This document shows, piece by piece, positions 30,664 to 40,570 of a stretch of 64,000 nucleotides of DNA (position 1 is the first letter of the stretch; each line of letters starts with the position of its first letter). A program made the translations under genes and the position numbers. Source of the DNA: Candidatus Poseidoniaceae archaeon (GTDB taxonomy: Archaea > Thermoplasmatota > Poseidoniia > Poseidoniales > Poseidoniaceae); assembly GCA_028353405.1 (NCBI GenBank), contig JAOMOG010000003.1, positions 1 to 64,000 on the forward strand, written 5' to 3'. Under the pieces are notes generated by a model that did no database searches, was not told the origin of the DNA, and saw nothing but the letters and a program-made list of their open reading frames with translations.

Positions 30664-31257
30664 TTATTGCAATAATGCAGTAATTCCTAAATCCTTATTG
30701 GCGACTTCTACTAATACATCGCAACCTGGAATCATCAATAATTTATCTTCTTGGTCAAGAGAAAAGATTGATACTCCACTTTCATCACTCATGTGCTTCA
30801 ATTCTCTCCGGCATGCGGCTTGGTGAGAATCCATGTGAACGAGTGGGCGTAAATCGACAATAACAGTATCTCCTTGGAGTATTCGCTTTCCTATATTCCT
30901 TGTTGCAATACGGCTCATCTTATCTGGTGAGACATATCGTAAAGCACGTGTTGGGAATGAGCGCCTAGGTCCATTATGAGCTGCAAGATCATGAAAAGGT
31001 TCGCCATCAGAAGTAACTGGGCCAGTCCACCCAACAGGAACTTGTTTGAGATTTCGTATGACTATTTTCTGTGGATTATTTGAGGCAATGGGCATCTCAT
31101 TTGTATCCATATCTTCTTTCGGAATCAACAAATGTTGTTCAGTAGTAGGATCAGGTACTACCGCTTTTGGCTTTTTCTTCTTCTTTGGCTTCTTGGCAGC
31201 AGATTGGATACTCTCCTCAGGATCGGGTAGTCCAAAAAATTGCCATAGATTTGCCAT
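30664..31257 (-). CDS. SepF-like (DUF552) protein, candidate FtsZ membrane anchor
   Basis: N-term MANLWQFFGLPDPEES resembles SepF amphipathic helix/FFGL; C-term RALRYVSPDKMSRIATRNIGKRILQGDTVIVDLRPL...DQEDKLLMIPGCDVLV matches SepF core pattern. Confidence 0.6.
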   Translation of the reverse strand: MANLWQFFGLPDPEESIQSAAKKPKKKKKPKAVVPDPTTEQHLLIPKEDMDTNEMPIASNNPQKIVIRNLKQVPVGWTGPVTSDGEPFHDLAAHNGPRRSFPTRALRYVSPDKMSRIATRNIGKRILQGDTVIVDLRPLVHMDSHQAACRRELKHMSDESGVSIFSLDQEDKLLMIPGCDVLVEVANKDLGITALLQ

Positions 31258-31266
31258 TTATGTCCC

Positions 31267-34200
31267 TCAGAAGTCTAAATCATCAAGCAAACCGCTCATG
31301 TCAGTACTGACAGAGGTGGCAGGGGTATTGTTAGTTGCCGGTTGAATTAGTGGTTGAGGTGCTTTATTTGCATCCAACCACTGTTGACCGTAGTAATCCC
31401 ATTGTTCCATTGTCCAACCGTCCGGTAATCCAGTATCTGGTAGAGCAGGACTCTGATTGGTTTGCACTGGTTGGGCAGCAGCTGGTTGCTGGACTTGTGG
31501 TTGGGCGACTTCAGCACCAACTTGTCCAAAGGCATCATACTGCGCAGCAGGTTGTTGGCTAGGGGCAACTGCCGCTTCACCAAACAAATCAGAACCAGGT
31601 TCAGAAGTAGGTAGGCTTGCACCGGAAGCGAATCCTCCATAGGATTGATATTTGTCTTCCGTTGGTTCTGAAGATTTACGTGTGATCAGTAAGAATATTG
31701 AAAGTCCGATTACCAACGAAAACAATAACACCAATACACCAGTTCCGACAGAACCAATTTCATCACTAATAGAATCAAGAATAGAATCAGAAGGGATTGC
31801 TTTGACAACGATGGTCATCGTAGATGATGCACTTTCATTATTGTCATCGATTACAACCAATGTAATGTCCCAAGTTCCAGCAGGCATGTTTTCCATAGTG
31901 TAATTAATTCCATAAAAGTCAATGTCACCATCATTATCGCCATCTAAATCTGTATCTAAGTGGTTTGATTTCCATTGATAGATAAGGTTTGACTTGTCTG
32001 CAGGAGTATCAATCGAATCTTTAGCACTCAACAATACGTTATCACCTTCGGTAATATCTGTAAGGTTTGTAACAGTTGATATTACTGAGCGTGGCGGCAA
32101 GTTCTGTACACTAATGTTAACCGACTGGGAAGCACTTGCTCCATCATCATCAGTAACAGTAGCAGTAATCCAACGAATACCAGTTGTAGGCCAAGAGAGT
32201 GTCATATTTTCACCAGTTTCTTGACAGTCGTTTGTAGCATCACCGTCACTGTTCAAATCTACTGCACCATTCAAGTCCCAGCAAATCTCTAATGTATCAA
32301 GATCCGATGCAGTATCGCTTACTTCAACATTTAATGTGATGTCATCATCTTCAAAGATTGGTGCATCTCCAGGTAGTCCAGTTATTGTTGGCACAACATT
32401 TGAAATCATTACTTTCGCAGTTCTATCTTCCGACTTTTCACCGTCATCGTCCCAAGCAGCAACACTGATTATGTGTTCGCCAGAAGTATCCCAAGAGATA
32501 GATACAGTTGATGCTGGTCCATTTGTAGTTTCACTCCAATTAGAATCTAGATGAGATGGTAACCATTCAATATTGAGATAATCTCTATCGCTGAGTGTAT
32601 CATCACCATTTACTCGTAATAATACAATTTGGTCTTCATCTAGATACCAAGTACCATTTTCATCAAGAGAAATATTTTGACCAGCATTCCAAAGTTCTGG
32701 TGTGTTGAGTGTTGGTGCAATATTCAGAACATTTAATGTCCGATTTACAGTTGTTACTGTGCCATCATCATCCATCGCTTCAGCGACGATCATAATCTCC
32801 CCTTCTGCTAGTGGAGTAAAAGTACAAGTCGGCTGTGTCAAACCTTCCTGACAATTTGTACCAGGCCAAGAAATAGTTACTTCTTGACCAGTAGGCGAAG
32901 TTGTATCCACATCCCCTGAGTCAGTTGCATCAATTGTAACTGAGCTCTCTACTGGGATGCTATCTGGCATTGACAGATTGATATATGGTGCTCGATTAAG
33001 TACGGTTACATTTGTATCTATTACATCAAAATCCAATTCATCATCAATGACGATTAATTTGATATTCCAAATGCCACTATCGCTCCAATTCCATTGAGTC
33101 CAGCAATCCGGGGAATCGATTACATCTATCAATCCAGTACGAGATTCTATCTCAAAGCGACAATCAACATCACCGCCATCCTCGTCAAAAGAAGCAGTCG
33201 CATTCAATGTTACATTCTCAAAAGTATATTTTCCTTCATCAATCATTATGTCGGCAGTAGGTGCTCTACCGATGAAAATACTGATGTTCGCATAATTGTT
33301 ACTTCTATTAGCATCTTGAGTAACAGTTTGGTCTGGGTCTACTGTAAATGCCAATGTCTTGAAACCAATTGACTCACTTTCTAGAATAGTCCAATTTACC
33401 AATATACGTTGCTCTGAATATGCAGATATTGGAGGAATGCTCTCTCTGAAACTAGTGCCATCTGGAGTGGTAATTTCGATCTCTGTAGCAGGCGAGGTCA
33501 ATACTCCACGATTCTGTGCAGGTATTGAGAAAGATAGTATGTCACCCGGTAATGCTGCAAAACCTATCGATTGAGAAAGTATTGCGGAGTCTTGTCCTCG
33601 ATGTCTAGTTACGATGATAGAATCGGATTGTGCGACTAAATCGACAGCGACAACACTCAAATCGACAACCAATGTTTTGGCGCCGATTATTTCTTCCACA
33701 GGATCCCAAACAATGATTCCATTACTGGTATAATCGTCACTCGAAGGCGTATCGTCAACGACAGTCGATGAGTTCAGACTACTGGTAGCATTACCATTAC
33801 CATCTGTAGTAGGATTATCTATTGTTTCATTCAATTCATATCTCAATTGTAAATTTTTGTTAGCCTGAGGTATATTGTTGATCATATATGATATTGAAAT
33901 ATCCTGAATTGCTTCAGGGAGCGTGGCAATAGATTGGGTATTGACTTCTATTTCCACATTTCTCGCACCTGGATTTGAACTATCTTGTACTCCCCATGAA
34001 TCTGCAGGGGAGTATTCCTTTAGCAACCAATCGATTGTGAATCCTGCTGAATTAGCTATTCTAATCCATGCTGGACCTCTTACCGCTGGACAGTACCACT
34101 GGAAACCTGCATTCACACCAGTTTCATTCCATTCCATAATTTTGTACGAATCATCACAACCAGTGTAGGAGATTTGAGTTCCATCTTCGATTGGCACACC

Positions 34201-34920
34201 ATTTGATGTTACTTGCCAACTAGAATTGTCAGTGCTATTTGTATCAAATTCCGACGGGTCAAAATAATCTGAAGTGCCGGTTACAGTTGTACCTGCTCGG
34301 AATGGCATATACCATTGGTCCCCAGTATGAATTGGGAAGTCATATTTTTCTTTGGCAGGTTCATACCATGTATCAAAAGTCAAATCAGCTAGATCTTGCT
34401 TCAAAAACCCGATGTTGAAAGGTAAGAAATCAACTCCTAATGTGAATTGCATATTGATGACAGCCAGGTCTCTAACCCTAACGATATCTACTCCATCGTA
34501 TGCGATGTTAAGTCGTCCACTTGTTCCTTCAAGAGTTGCACCACTATTACCCGATGTAAAATCACCACTAATTGTGATTTCATAGACCAATGTCTGCACA
34601 CCATCTATCATCATAAATTTAATATCTGTAATTTCATAATCTGTTTCTCCAGTTAAAGTATTAATTGATGCAGTAACATTTGCTTGGGCAATTAATGCCG
34701 CAACATCAAACAGAGTATCGTAAGTCCATTCATCTCCAATACGGTAATTTGGAACATCTGGTGCTGATGTCGTACCATCAGCATGTGACTGATTGGAGTC
34801 ATCTAAGTGCTGATTATTTTCATCTAGCAGCAAAGAAAATGGTGCAAGGAAAATAATCGCGAAAAGAGCAATTGCAACGATTCGTTGTTGTATCATTACA
34901 CTCCCATATCGGTGACTCAT
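31267..34920 (-). CDS. Giant surface protein (1217 aa) with PKD/CARDB-like domains, TM, cytoplasmic Trp-rich tail; paralog of next gene
   Basis: Signal peptide, repeated PKD-like SFDEDGGDVDCRFEI..., TM VGTGVLVLLFSLVIGLSIFLLI, tail LPDGWTMEQWDYYGQQWLDANK. Confidence 0.8.
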   Translation of the reverse strand: MSHRYGSVMIQQRIVAIALFAIIFLAPFSLLLDENNQHLDDSNQSHADGTTSAPDVPNYRIGDEWTYDTLFDVAALIAQANVTASINTLTGETDYEITDIKFMMIDGVQTLVYEITISGDFTSGNSGATLEGTSGRLNIAYDGVDIVRVRDLAVINMQFTLGVDFLPFNIGFLKQDLADLTFDTWYEPAKEKYDFPIHTGDQWYMPFRAGTTVTGTSDYFDPSEFDTNSTDNSSWQVTSNGVPIEDGTQISYTGCDDSYKIMEWNETGVNAGFQWYCPAVRGPAWIRIANSAGFTIDWLLKEYSPADSWGVQDSSNPGARNVEIEVNTQSIATLPEAIQDISISYMINNIPQANKNLQLRYELNETIDNPTTDGNGNATSSLNSSTVVDDTPSSDDYTSNGIIVWDPVEEIIGAKTLVVDLSVVAVDLVAQSDSIIVTRHRGQDSAILSQSIGFAALPGDILSFSIPAQNRGVLTSPATEIEITTPDGTSFRESIPPISAYSEQRILVNWTILESESIGFKTLAFTVDPDQTVTQDANRSNNYANISIFIGRAPTADIMIDEGKYTFENVTLNATASFDEDGGDVDCRFEIESRTGLIDVIDSPDCWTQWNWSDSGIWNIKLIVIDDELDFDVIDTNVTVLNRAPYINLSMPDSIPVESSVTIDATDSGDVDTTSPTGQEVTISWPGTNCQEGLTQPTCTFTPLAEGEIMIVAEAMDDDGTVTTVNRTLNVLNIAPTLNTPELWNAGQNISLDENGTWYLDEDQIVLLRVNGDDTLSDRDYLNIEWLPSHLDSNWSETTNGPASTVSISWDTSGEHIISVAAWDDDGEKSEDRTAKVMISNVVPTITGLPGDAPIFEDDDITLNVEVSDTASDLDTLEICWDLNGAVDLNSDGDATNDCQETGENMTLSWPTTGIRWITATVTDDDGASASQSVNISVQNLPPRSVISTVTNLTDITEGDNVLLSAKDSIDTPADKSNLIYQWKSNHLDTDLDGDNDGDIDFYGINYTMENMPAGTWDITLVVIDDNNESASSTMTIVVKAIPSDSILDSISDEIGSVGTGVLVLLFSLVIGLSIFLLITRKSSEPTEDKYQSYGGFASGASLPTSEPGSDLFGEAAVAPSQQPAAQYDAFGQVGAEVAQPQVQQPAAAQPVQTNQSPALPDTGLPDGWTMEQWDYYGQQWLDANKAPQPLIQPATNNTPATSVSTDMSGLLDDLDF

Positions 34921-34951
34921 TTAATGCAATTGATTCATTGACTAATGGCAA

Positions 34952-37900
34952 CTATTGCATTGAATCCAAGTATTCCTGTCCAAAATGCTGCCACTGGTCT
35001 TCACTCCACCCCTTCGGTAAGCCATCTTCAGGGATCGGCGGTGAGTCTATATTCAACTCAGCAGTTGGGCTAATTTCATCTTCTTGTTGCTGCTCATTTA
35101 TTGGTGATTTGGGATCAATCGAATCTTGCGGTGCTATTTCCATGGCAGCCGCAAATGTGTGAAGCGGTGGAGAGGTTTCAGGTCTCTTTGCTTCAATCAT
35201 CCTCGCCATGTGGTCAATCGGTTCACCGAATTCATCTAATTCGTTTTGAAAGTTGGATAGTTCTGGCCACATATCAGGCTGAATCTCTTTTCTTCGTCCA
35301 GATAATAATGTAAGCACTGACAGAATTGTCACCAATAATGCAAGTTGAGCAAATGCATTTGCTTCTTCACCAATTAATGAAGCGCTTATTTTTTCAACAA
35401 CATTTCGCTCAGGAGGAGATACGTCGATATTCTTTGTAGAGGTTCCAGGACGTTCAGGGTCTTCATCCCAAGCGATTGCTTTGATTTTAGCAACCCCTGA
35501 AACACGGAATACATGAGAAACTGTTTTTCCAATCAAATCAGCATCGTTATCGGAGATTCCATCACCATTACTATCGCTTGTAATATCCAAATCCCAGACG
35601 ATAGTGATGTCGTCAATATCGTTAATTGAGTCGATTGTCGCAGAAGCATCGAGAGTACATTCGCGGTATGCTACACAAGATACATCACTGATTCTTACCT
35701 TTGGAGGTATGTTAAGGACTTCGATGACGAGAACTTCACTCGAATATGCGCCATCATCATCAGTGACATGGTAGATAATTGTGTGAGAGCCACTTCTATT
35801 CCATGAATATGTTAAATCATCTCCACGAATGTCACAATCATCAGCAGCAGAGCCGTAGCCGTCACTATCTATTCCTGGGTCAATATCCCAACATCTGCTC
35901 AATGTAGCAATGTCACTCTCTGTGTCAGTAGCAGAACCGGTAATCGAAATTTCTTGCCCTTCAGCAATTGGTAATATTTGATCTAAAGCCTCAACAATAG
36001 GTGCAGCATTTCTGACATTGACCCAGCGTTCTTCAACCGCACTAGATGCTCCATCTGTGTCGGTTACTTGCAAGCGAATCTTATGCAATCCCGAATCACT
36101 CCACAACATTGGGAATTGAGATGTTCTTCCTTCCAAAATTTCCATCAGAGATGGTTGTGCATCATCAGGCCACCATGTATGAATTAATTTATCAATATCA
36201 TCAATGGAATCATCAGATTGGCCCTTGATATTGACCAATTGGTCTTCATCAACTTGCCAAATATGTTGGTTATCACTCTCAATCGCAATTGAACCATCCA
36301 ATAATTGTATTGTGGTTCCATGCGGCGCAATATTGGTGAATTTTATATCAATACTCGCTGTGGTCTTTGTAAAGTCATCATCTTCTGCAATTGCCAAAAA
36401 TGAATGCCATCCTTCATGCAAAGCAGTGGTGGTACATACTCGCGTATAGTAACCCTCTTGGCAAATTGAATTGGGCCAATAAACATCTACAACACCCGGC
36501 CAAATCTTCTCAGAATCAGAATCATTTGCATATGCATACAATGTGATTGGATGCTCAACCTTGGCTTCAGTTCTTGAACTTCTAATCTCTATCTTTGGTG
36601 CCCGGTTCTCAACCTCAACGATCAAGGTAATCGTCACCTCATCCCTCTCATCATCAATAACGGTGATATCAACAGGATATTGACCATCATCAATCCAAGA
36701 ATAATTTAGCATGCAGGATTGCGAAATAAACTCTTGATTTTTCCATTGGCGCGAACCATCATCAAAGGTGACGGCGAATTTACAAAACACATCTCCACCA
36801 TCTTCATCAAAACTTTGTGAAGCGTCAATTAATGCTAATTGATTGGTTTGAATTGATGAAGAATTAGCCAAAGCGGTTGGCATTCTACCAACGTTTAGAT
36901 TCAATTGTGCATAATCATTAGTTGAATTTGCATCAGCGGAATTAACCGAATCAGGATCAGCTTCCCAACTCATTGGAATACTGCCAATAGGTGAATCGGC
37001 AGGAACAGTCCAGGTGAAGTTGACTTTGTGCACAGCATAAGTGGCTAATGGTGACATCATGTGCCGACTGGTTTGGCCATCTGGGTGAGTGATTAGAATC
37101 TCAGCAGGTGTGGATGTAGTGATGCCACGATTTTTTACTGAAACTTCAATGAATAATTGATCTGCAGGCAATACATTCCATCCGGTAATTGAATTTAATT
37201 CAGATGTGATACCACTTCTATTCCTCATCACGATTGCAGAATCTAAATCCGCAATTAAATCAAGTCCGACCATATATTCATCTAATGTAATGGTTGCAAC
37301 TCCGATATGATTGGCAATTTTAGCAACGAATGCGTGACTGGCCCAATCTAAAGCGTAGGCAGAAGAGTCTAATTTGTCTGAAACATCGATAACCGCCCAA
37401 GCACTTCCGTTAGCAGCAGTGGTTAGAGATGCAAGGAATCCAGTGGTCTCATAACGCAATTCTAATTGTAATCCAGCAATGTTTGAAAAACAGGTAGCGG
37501 ATACATTAGCCCATACTTCAATTGGCGTATTGAGTGCAGTAATTGAGTTGGTTGATTCAACATTTATACAACGCTCACGAGTACCAGGGTTTTGATAAAT
37601 ATCGACTCCAGTAGAGTCCTTTGGAATATATTGTTTCAATCTGAAATCAATTGTTAATCCAACATCTTCTTCATTATGCATCCATGCATAATTTCTTGCT
37701 TCTGGGCAATACCAACGGTATCCGGATTCATCACCTTGAGAATCATAGGAAGTCAAGCCGTAAGACTCATTGCAACCACCATAACCAATTGTCTGTCCTC
37801 TACTATTGAATGGTTTACCAACTGCAGTAACCTCCCATGTTGTAGAATTGGTGTCGGAGACTGGTGGCGGGAATGGTGTGATGTAATCACTTGTTCCAGA

Positions 37901-38542
37901 CCAAGTAGAACTGGTAGTTTTTGTTGTAGTCCAACGTTCATCAGCTCTAAGTGGGAAATCATATACTTCATTGACAGGTGAATAGGTATTGGTAATTGTA
38001 ATATCACCAAGAACCATAGTTAAGGATGAAATTCCGTATGGAACGAATTGGATGTACATGTCCAAGTCGCTTCGTATTGTTGATAAATCGCTAACCTGAA
38101 TTATTTCCGTCTGAGTATATTCAATGAATGCATTACCAGTATATCCATCCAATTCTACTCCGGATTTATCAAAATTAGCATATGATCTAAGAGTATAGGC
38201 CAAGACGGTCTTATTGTCAACTGACTGCTCGGTAATGGAGATTACTTCCGCAGTGGTGTCACCATTTATTTCTCCGACTGAAGCGCTTACTCCACTGTTG
38301 ACAATCAATGCAGTCGGGTCAAAGGTTCCGGAATAAATCCACTTGTCACCGATTCTCCAAACGGGAACGTCGCTAACACCTGGGTCGCCAGAAGCACCTG
38401 ATCTAGCAGGAATTATATTTTCAAATTCTAGCGGGCCTGCAGTATCATCTTGCTGAGAAGATAGGAAGGGGCTGAGGGATGATATCACTATCAAAAAAAA
38501 GAGCGCCACAGCCGGAACTGCAGAACTAGACTTGCGCCTCAT
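34952..38542 (-). CDS. Giant surface protein (1196 aa) with PKD/CARDB-like domains, TM, cytoplasmic Trp-rich tail; paralog of previous gene
   Basis: Colinear with 1217-aa protein (e.g. DVPVWRIGDKWIYSGTFD vs DVPNYRIGDEWTYDTLFD); tail LPKGWSEDQWQHFGQEYLDSMQ. Confidence 0.8.
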   Translation of the reverse strand: MRRKSSSAVPAVALFFLIVISSLSPFLSSQQDDTAGPLEFENIIPARSGASGDPGVSDVPVWRIGDKWIYSGTFDPTALIVNSGVSASVGEINGDTTAEVISITEQSVDNKTVLAYTLRSYANFDKSGVELDGYTGNAFIEYTQTEIIQVSDLSTIRSDLDMYIQFVPYGISSLTMVLGDITITNTYSPVNEVYDFPLRADERWTTTKTTSSTWSGTSDYITPFPPPVSDTNSTTWEVTAVGKPFNSRGQTIGYGGCNESYGLTSYDSQGDESGYRWYCPEARNYAWMHNEEDVGLTIDFRLKQYIPKDSTGVDIYQNPGTRERCINVESTNSITALNTPIEVWANVSATCFSNIAGLQLELRYETTGFLASLTTAANGSAWAVIDVSDKLDSSAYALDWASHAFVAKIANHIGVATITLDEYMVGLDLIADLDSAIVMRNRSGITSELNSITGWNVLPADQLFIEVSVKNRGITTSTPAEILITHPDGQTSRHMMSPLATYAVHKVNFTWTVPADSPIGSIPMSWEADPDSVNSADANSTNDYAQLNLNVGRMPTALANSSSIQTNQLALIDASQSFDEDGGDVFCKFAVTFDDGSRQWKNQEFISQSCMLNYSWIDDGQYPVDITVIDDERDEVTITLIVEVENRAPKIEIRSSRTEAKVEHPITLYAYANDSDSEKIWPGVVDVYWPNSICQEGYYTRVCTTTALHEGWHSFLAIAEDDDFTKTTASIDIKFTNIAPHGTTIQLLDGSIAIESDNQHIWQVDEDQLVNIKGQSDDSIDDIDKLIHTWWPDDAQPSLMEILEGRTSQFPMLWSDSGLHKIRLQVTDTDGASSAVEERWVNVRNAAPIVEALDQILPIAEGQEISITGSATDTESDIATLSRCWDIDPGIDSDGYGSAADDCDIRGDDLTYSWNRSGSHTIIYHVTDDDGAYSSEVLVIEVLNIPPKVRISDVSCVAYRECTLDASATIDSINDIDDITIVWDLDITSDSNGDGISDNDADLIGKTVSHVFRVSGVAKIKAIAWDEDPERPGTSTKNIDVSPPERNVVEKISASLIGEEANAFAQLALLVTILSVLTLLSGRRKEIQPDMWPELSNFQNELDEFGEPIDHMARMIEAKRPETSPPLHTFAAAMEIAPQDSIDPKSPINEQQQEDEISPTAELNIDSPPIPEDGLPKGWSEDQWQHFGQEYLDSMQ

Positions 38543-38661: not shown

Positions 38662-39294
38662 TCAAAGAAGATCTGCCAATTCATCCTTGATGATTTCTAC
38701 AGCTTCAAGAATTTCACTCTTGTGACGAGCACCAGTAATTACCATCTTTCCAGAACCGAAAATCAAACAGACAACCTTAGGGAAGTCAAGTCTGTAAATT
38801 AGTCCAGGGAATTGCTCTGGCTCGTACTCAACCTTGTCGAAAGGTAAGTGGAATGTTAGATTGTTAAGGTTCAACTTGCGTGGAAGTCCTGCAAGAGGGG
38901 AACCCTTTGGAAGGTCAAGGGTGTCAATTCTTTGTAGTCCATCATAATCTTCAGGATAGTGAAGGGCATAGGTTGCAACCATGTTTTGAACTTCAATTTC
39001 AACATCTTTCTTGTCCCATGTCTCAATACCTGCGCCGCGTAGGTCCTGAATCATGCGCTCAATTCCAGTGTGAATGTTATCCTTGTTCTTTCCACCAGTA
39101 CAAACAGCTCTTCCAGAACGGAACATCAATATTGCAAGTTTAGGGTCTTTGACACGGTATACGACACCAGGGAATTGTTCTGGCTCATATTCACAATTCA
39201 ATTGAATTGCGATGTCCGGAAGATCAAGTTCTTCCGCTACTCGAGTGCTGGCTACTACGTTTACGACAGTTAGACGCTCTTCATCAGTGGTCAT
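38662..39294 (-). CDS. tbp: TATA-binding protein with extended second repeat
   Basis: Two TBP repeats: NCEYEPEQFPGVVYRVKDPKLAILMFRSGRAVCTG and KVEYEPEQFPGLIYRLDFPKVVCLIFGSGKMVITG; start M5 (39294) favoured by TATA spacing. Confidence 0.95.
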   Translation of the reverse strand: MTTDEERLTVVNVVASTRVAEELDLPDIAIQLNCEYEPEQFPGVVYRVKDPKLAILMFRSGRAVCTGGKNKDNIHTGIERMIQDLRGAGIETWDKKDVEIEVQNMVATYALHYPEDYDGLQRIDTLDLPKGSPLAGLPRKLNLNNLTFHLPFDKVEYEPEQFPGLIYRLDFPKVVCLIFGSGKMVITGARHKSEILEAVEIIKDELADLL

Positions 39295-39316
39295 GTCCCT
39301 CGCCACTTATAACCAC

Positions 39317-39376: not shown

Positions 39377-40570
39377 CTATTTACTAGATGGTTTCCAAAA
39401 AGGCAATCCTTCATGGCTTTCTATTCGCACTCCAGCGTTGCCTATTTTAGAGATTAGAGTTCTACCACCAGCCAATTCAATCGCTTCACTGGTTTGCTTT
39501 GGATTTCGAGTTAATGCCACCATACAACCGCCACCACCCGCTCCAGTTAGTTTCGCTCCCAGCGATGAAGGTGCAGCAGCACGAACCAGATCATCTAACT
39601 CCAAGCATGATACGCCGAGGCCTCTAAGCATCAGATGATTTTCACTCATCGCTCTTCCAACCGCTTCATAATCGCCTTTCAGCAGTGCTTCAACTCCTCT
39701 GCGAGCGATGAGTCCAATAGTTTCAATCTCTCTCATCCGCTGTGGGTTTTCACTCATCGCCGCAGCGACTTTGGCCACTTGTATTGAAGTTGGAGCATGA
39801 ACTCCAGAGTTCCCTATTACGAGATACACATCTTGTTCATCTGTCATTACAGGAATGGTATGTACCTGCCAAGTTCTATCACCTTCAGGAATATTAAGAG
39901 TTCTTGTATATACCCAATCAGTTCCCTTTTCAACTTCATCAGAAAGTAAAACAATTCCTCCATGTGCGCATACTGAAGAATCCATAGGAGATGCTCTTCC
40001 TCCTTGTGCAATCGCTTCGACAGCATGGCCAAGCAATGCACATTCATCAACATCTATTGCTTGCTCGCCCCAAACGTGTGAACTTCCTTGGCCATTAGCC
40101 CCTACTCTTCTAGCAGGGTCTTTACCCTCATCAACTTTAGAATATACATCGGTATCAGTTAGTTGGCTTGAGAAACCTTCAGCCCAGTCTTTGGTTTCAG
40201 TTGCTTCTCCACCCTCGGATAACCAACGCCCTCTTGCAGCACGTAAACAAGCGCTGGCAGCAACTGACAATGCTGCTGAAGAACCCAGTCCAGAGGCTGG
40301 AGGTACGTCACCATTAATATGAATCGAAAGTGCTGGCGCTCCTGCCTTTTTTTGCCATAGACGCGAGCGCAATGCCTCAACATGAGGATGTTTGGAAGGA
40401 ATTAATTTCATACCATCAATACGCCACTCATCGGCTCCTTCTTCTAATAATTCAAGGCTGACGGTAATGCGCTGCTCAATAGCTACAGCAACAGCAGGTT
40501 GTCCAAAAACAACAGCATGTTCTCCGAACAAGATACACTTGCCTGGTGCACTTGCTTCAACTTTAGCCAT
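39377..40570 (-). CDS. Mevalonate kinase (GHMP kinase)
   Basis: ASAPGKCILFGEHAVVFGQPAVAVAIEQR, PPASGLGSSAALSVAASACL, KLTGAGGGGCMVAL. Confidence 0.9.
   Translation of the reverse strand: MAKVEASAPGKCILFGEHAVVFGQPAVAVAIEQRITVSLELLEEGADEWRIDGMKLIPSKHPHVEALRSRLWQKKAGAPALSIHINGDVPPASGLGSSAALSVAASACLRAARGRWLSEGGEATETKDWAEGFSSQLTDTDVYSKVDEGKDPARRVGANGQGSSHVWGEQAIDVDECALLGHAVEAIAQGGRASPMDSSVCAHGGIVLLSDEVEKGTDWVYTRTLNIPEGDRTWQVHTIPVMTDEQDVYLVIGNSGVHAPTSIQVAKVAAAMSENPQRMREIETIGLIARRGVEALLKGDYEAVGRAMSENHLMLRGLGVSCLELDDLVRAAAPSSLGAKLTGAGGGGCMVALTRNPKQTSEAIELAGGRTLISKIGNAGVRIESHEGLPFWKPSSK

Follow-up and report, generated by a model that had tools for sequence, protein, structure and literature searches.

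The SepF-like gene of the window (the whole 64,000-nucleotide stretch that was analysed, from an assembly that is 66% complete) lies directly behind two genes that encode giant surface proteins. The order on the minus strand is that given by the first-pass annotation: a gene for a protein of 1196 amino acids (34952..38542), a gap of 31 nt, a gene for a protein of 1217 amino acids (31267..34920), a gap of 9 nt and the gene for a 197-amino acid protein (30664..31257). We refer to the last as SepF-A, a diverged SepF paralogue based on the ORF call, profile comparison, fold and tree, and to the others as giants 1196 and 1217. The string of genes extends upstream of giant 1196 on the same strand, across a gap of 119 nt, to TBP (38662..39306) and then mevalonate kinase, a GHMP kinase (39377..40570). 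The closest named relatives of SepF-A are found in a Euryarchaeota MAG (96% identical) and a Candidatus Poseidoniaceae MAG (92%), which places the window in Marine Group II (Poseidoniales).

The two giants are paralogues, with 32% identity over 400 N-terminal residues, and each has, by hydropathy, one strong C-terminal transmembrane segment followed by a cytoplasmic tail; both of these points had been proposed from the sequence alone. Both giants also have a hydrophobic N-terminus and PKD domains that score above the Pfam cut-off (PF00801 at 31.7 bits, cut-off 23.5, in giant 1217; PF18911 at 46.6, cut-off 27, in giant 1196). The model of residues 50-449 of giant 1217 (pLDDT 85.7, pTM 0.85), analysed by fold search, predicts a beta-barrel-like domain (about residues 50-309; 33994..34773, minus strand, as are all features of this protein) and then an Ig/macroglobulin-like domain (about residues 322-424; 33649..33957). 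The matches of the latter to complement C3-type proteins were set aside as fold similarity only. The same protein has a CARDB-like stretch that is below the Pfam cut-off (residues 457-543; 33292..33552), PKD-type repeats (residues 841-1039; 31804..32400) and the transmembrane segment (residues 1061-1079; 31684..31740).

Conservation of the gene order

We compared the locus in the family of the window, in a second family from the same order, probably the Thalassarchaeaceae, and in a sister family of the same class, probably a Marine Group III lineage. The order giant to SepF-A is kept in every readable locus, that is, in 38/38 named loci of the window's type with upstream sequence and in 20/20 loci of the second family, in which a giant is likewise directly upstream. 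The gap between the two genes is 9-16 nt in loci of the window's type, with 4-nt overlaps if an alternative upstream GTG start is used, and is 77-89 nt in a few loci of the second family. There are two giants per locus in the window's family, in five loci of which the counterpart of giant 1196 was located by tblastn, and one in most loci of the second family.

Since every readable locus of the two families retains this order even though their SepF-like proteins are just 24-41% identical to SepF-A of the window, it is conserved far beyond chance, and the fact that the genes flanking SepF-A on its opposite side differ between the families adds to this argument. However, TBP and mevalonate kinase are found upstream in both families as equally conserved neighbours, and thus a functional link does not follow from gene order by itself; two such genes, with no evident functional tie, call for caution about any coupling between SepF-A and the giant.

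Two other arrangements were noted. In a subclade of the window's family, SepF-A and Maf are separated by a gene on the SepF strand (L059:8274-9566 (-)); its product, of ~430 amino acids, has hydrophobic segments near the N-terminus and matches no Pfam model. In the sister family, the single SepF, which seems to be without an N-terminal membrane helix, comes after a gene for a large PKD protein with a HEFGH metalloprotease motif and a C-terminal transmembrane segment (L113:6068-9514 (+)). We rejected this neighbour as an instance of the same linkage because it is metalloprotease-like, with PKD repeats, and only weakly related to the giants.

SepF-A, SepF-B and FtsZ

As a single sequence, the 197-amino acid protein matched no Pfam or NCBIfam model and a PDB search gave nothing useful; single SepF-A sequences score under the cut-off of the Pfam SepF model, PF04472. 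When SepF-A of the window was aligned with 28 relatives from the two families, the best PDB profile match was the A. fulgidus SepF (3zie, E 0.0098), and hhalign of this alignment against 23 canonical Thermoplasmatota SepF sequences gave a probability of 94.4 and an E value of 8.5e-8, the two alignments staying in register between the (F/Y)xDL motif and the final strand. Similarly, an HMM of canonical SepF, made from 14 sequences, none of them from Poseidoniales, was searched against all ORFs of the collected loci and matched canonical SepF, the giant-linked proteins, one copy of the second paralogue described below, and nothing else. The core of the SepF-A model is predicted with pLDDT over 90; Foldseek matched the model to 3zie, 3zig and 7al1 with a probability of 1.00, and the top PDB matches in a VIA fold search were all SepF (3zig_B with Z 11.4, rmsd 2.4 and 84 aligned residues). 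IF3-type folds reach a Z of about 7 in that search, and this, together with the empty single-sequence Pfam and NCBIfam searches, is what could be said for a different small alpha/beta protein of IF3-like topology. The SepF structures are clearly ahead, however, and the in-register profile-profile match and the matches to the canonical HMM also argue against an IF3-like protein, which we consider very improbable. SepF-A is almost certainly SepF by descent, and the SepF-like assignment in the first-pass annotation holds, although SepF-A is not the sole SepF, as a second, less diverged copy is found in nearly every genome of the order. The two checks named in that annotation, a structural match to the SepF fold and a conserved gene order in close relatives, both came out in its favour.

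The N-terminal element and the core that had been pointed out earlier are both present. The core spans residues 104-186 (30700..30948, minus strand), based on profile and structure matches. The protein starts with MANLWQFFGLPDPEE (31213..31257, minus strand), a putative membrane or partner motif; in the alignment, this corresponds to a conserved hydrophobic LWxFFGLPDP. Residues G9, L10 and P11 of the motif do not vary among 29 relatives, and a short helix is predicted at residues 4-7. Residues 11-60 behave as a flexible linker, with pLDDT 55-65, no secondary structure and a length that varies among relatives. As its SepF core follows a variable linker and, before that, a conserved hydrophobic motif, SepF-A probably lies against the cytoplasmic side of the membrane. 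The helical hydrophobic moment of the motif is higher in some members of the second family but low in the window's family, and the low value may count against a membrane-seated protein. Helix alpha2 keeps its basic residues (CRREL), which appear to align with the positions at which M. smithii SepF relies on Lys115 and Arg118. Both membrane binding and FtsZ binding by SepF-A are inferred.

PF04472 matched in 89 of the 145 genomes sampled from the phylum, in none of the listed genomes of the window's family and in one of the second family (G040), where the matching gene is other than SepF-A. We therefore rejected the idea that the order has one undetected SepF: the extra match in G040 is a second paralogue, SepF-B, which is matched in 56/59 relatives. 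SepF-B occupies a locus between proteasome-beta and ZPR1 that is conserved across the order (for example L270:9527-10159 (+), on contig C51 of G000, outside the window) and matches canonical SepF with an hhalign E of 2e-10. Of 194 sampled genomes of the class, 168 gave a match for SepF-A and 163 for SepF-B; neither profile matched in the listed sister-family genomes of this sample, and canonical SepF was found in all three sister-family genomes checked with Pfam. In the tree, SepF-A and SepF-B form separate clades (support 100/97 and 96/89) that group together versus canonical SepF (96/91), a grouping in which long branches may mislead; AU p values for placing the sister-family SepF with SepF-A or with SepF-B were 0.265 and 0.203. 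This tree is consistent with a duplication before the split of the two families. Most archaea have one SepF (Pende et al., PMC8178401), and the literature library that we searched held no account of an archaeon with a second copy. The two SepF paralogues of Poseidoniales, with SepF-B near-universal in the order, are new here.

FtsZ co-occurs with SepF, being present in 59/59 relatives, and the order has FtsZ-A, FtsZ-B and a shorter third paralogue (L001:961-2130 (-); L133-L199). FtsZ-A ends in GF[QH]RFD or close variants and FtsZ-B mostly in xEFVN or xEFIN, while the sister family and several other Thermoplasmatota have at least one FtsZ with a GI[DE]FV-like tail. Compared with the latter, the FtsZ-B tail is recognisable but the FtsZ-A tail is not. 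Judging from these endings, which take the place of a single canonical archaeal tail, the FtsZ tails of Poseidoniales have diverged, which is also new here. Small PRC-barrel genes are present as well; the PRC-barrel family includes proteins that work alongside SepF when haloarchaea divide. In many genomes of the second family, such a gene lies ~1 kb from FtsZ-A (G044:C7:187059, G045:C26:54659, G043:C18:29070 and others) and possibly encodes a CdpB-like division protein.

The giant tail and its possible coupling to SepF-A

Several large proteins per genome have a cytoplasmic tail that closes with the motif GLPxGWTMEQWxxYGxxWL. In giant 1217, a motif search places GWTMEQW at 31399..31419 (minus strand), and the tail continues to a C-terminal LLDDLDF (31270..31290, minus strand) that is near-invariant in relatives by tail alignment. 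GWTMEQW matches 6 times in G000 and 11 times in G003, and in both genomes only the SepF-adjacent giant runs past the motif to LLDDLD[F/L], which is absent from the other proteins with this tail; giant 1196 stops after the motif, without the extension. This restriction of the ending to the SepF-adjacent giant is likewise new here. Among adjacent giants of the window's type, 37/38 have this ending by a strict pattern, and the remaining one ends in LDGLDF. The stretch past GWTMEQW is 34-77 amino acids long in this set; across the 37 distinct tails, no more than one sequence deviates at any of positions -2 to -5, compared with an entropy of about 2 bits or more in most linker columns. The SepF-binding segments of FtsZ tails are LDDFI in M. 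smithii and DLDV in C. glutamicum (PMC8178401), which LLDDLD[F/L] resembles; we take this resemblance as a lead, and the acidic peptide as a concrete candidate contact for the link between envelope and division machinery that the first-pass annotation had suggested. In part of the second family, other acidic endings (EDIEALFEE, EEE) are found in place of LDDLD, and these seem to count against docking of the tail.

The most likely reading, to which we assign a probability of about 0.42, is that SepF-A is a cortical protein of the SepF type and is coupled, possibly via the tail, to the giant. SepF-A would be made together with the giant directly upstream, as gaps of about 9-16 nt suggest co-transcription, and would sit at the membrane as a dimer, as expected from its family. 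The giant would expose its ectodomain (the beta-barrel-like, Ig-like, CARDB-like and PKD parts), cross the membrane with one helix and dock on SepF-A with the tail that ends in LLDDLD[F/L], perhaps in the groove that receives FtsZ tails in canonical SepF. If so, SepF-A would connect the protein layer outside the cell with the FtsZ/SepF machinery of the cortex. That SepF-A and the giant are functionally coupled, rather than merely adjacent, is a tentative conclusion; that the tail itself docks in the groove for FtsZ seems unlikely, and we are equally doubtful that an FtsZ-tail-like peptide in this groove provides a direct transmembrane link from the outer protein layer to a dedicated second SepF, with SepF-A and SepF-B splitting surface coupling and FtsZ anchoring between them.

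It is quite possible that SepF-A is instead an ordinary, diverged membrane anchor of FtsZ that has the gene order, or a transcript, in common with the giants without contacting them, and that the tail binds another partner. The retained SepF core and hydrophobic N-terminal motif, the presence of FtsZ in all relatives and the inclusion of TBP and mevalonate kinase, which are unrelated, in the conserved string of genes would all be expected in this case. Left unexplained are a conserved terminal peptide found only on the SepF-adjacent giant and a linkage that has outlasted strong sequence divergence. A further, rather improbable alternative takes SepF-A out of division altogether, as a cortical scaffold for surface proteins only, with SepF-B alone serving FtsZ. 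SepF-A is on a long branch and has lower PF04472 scores than SepF-B (3/29 versus 15/23 members), in line with this alternative, but it retains the whole core and the basic alpha2 residues, and SepF-B, which has no obvious N-terminal membrane motif, would be a poor sole anchor.

If SepF-A is indeed coupled to the giant, the cell surface of Marine Group II archaea in the surface ocean may be wired to the division machinery, which bears on what ties the archaeal FtsZ/SepF ring to the cell surface. The two papers on SepF from 2021 describe membrane anchoring, and the one on Haloferax goes no further than suggesting coordination with the addition of new surface layer (PMC8187382). Poseidoniales abound in the ocean, and Pfam does not pick up their SepF; their two SepF paralogues, diverged FtsZ tails and SepF-linked giant with a conserved cytoplasmic end make a link between surface and divisome directly testable.

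Comparison with known systems

The closest known system is archaeal SepF (PF04472; PDB 7AL1/7AL2 from M. smithii, 3ZIE from A. fulgidus and 3ZIG from P. furiosus; HVO_0392 of H. volcanii). SepF-A shares its core fold and register, the (F/Y)xDL motif before the core, a variable linker, a hydrophobic N-terminal stretch and FtsZ in the same genomes, but has diverged beyond single-sequence detection by Pfam, has a strongly conserved N-terminal xLWxFFGLPDP, belongs to a pair of paralogues and has a fixed place behind the gene for a giant surface protein. SepF-B has the SepF core in common with SepF-A, but differs in its locus, in its closer match to PF04472 and in lacking an obvious N-terminal membrane motif. 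The giants resemble archaeal surface proteins of the PKD/CARDB type in their N-terminal signal-like segment, PKD repeats and single C-terminal transmembrane helix, from which the SepF-adjacent giant is set apart by the conserved terminal peptide on its cytoplasmic tail and its fixed linkage to the SepF gene. This tail resembles the C-terminal SepF-binding peptides of FtsZ in that a short acidic-hydrophobic peptide ends a linker, but here the candidate peptide belongs to the cytoplasmic part of a surface protein that spans the membrane.
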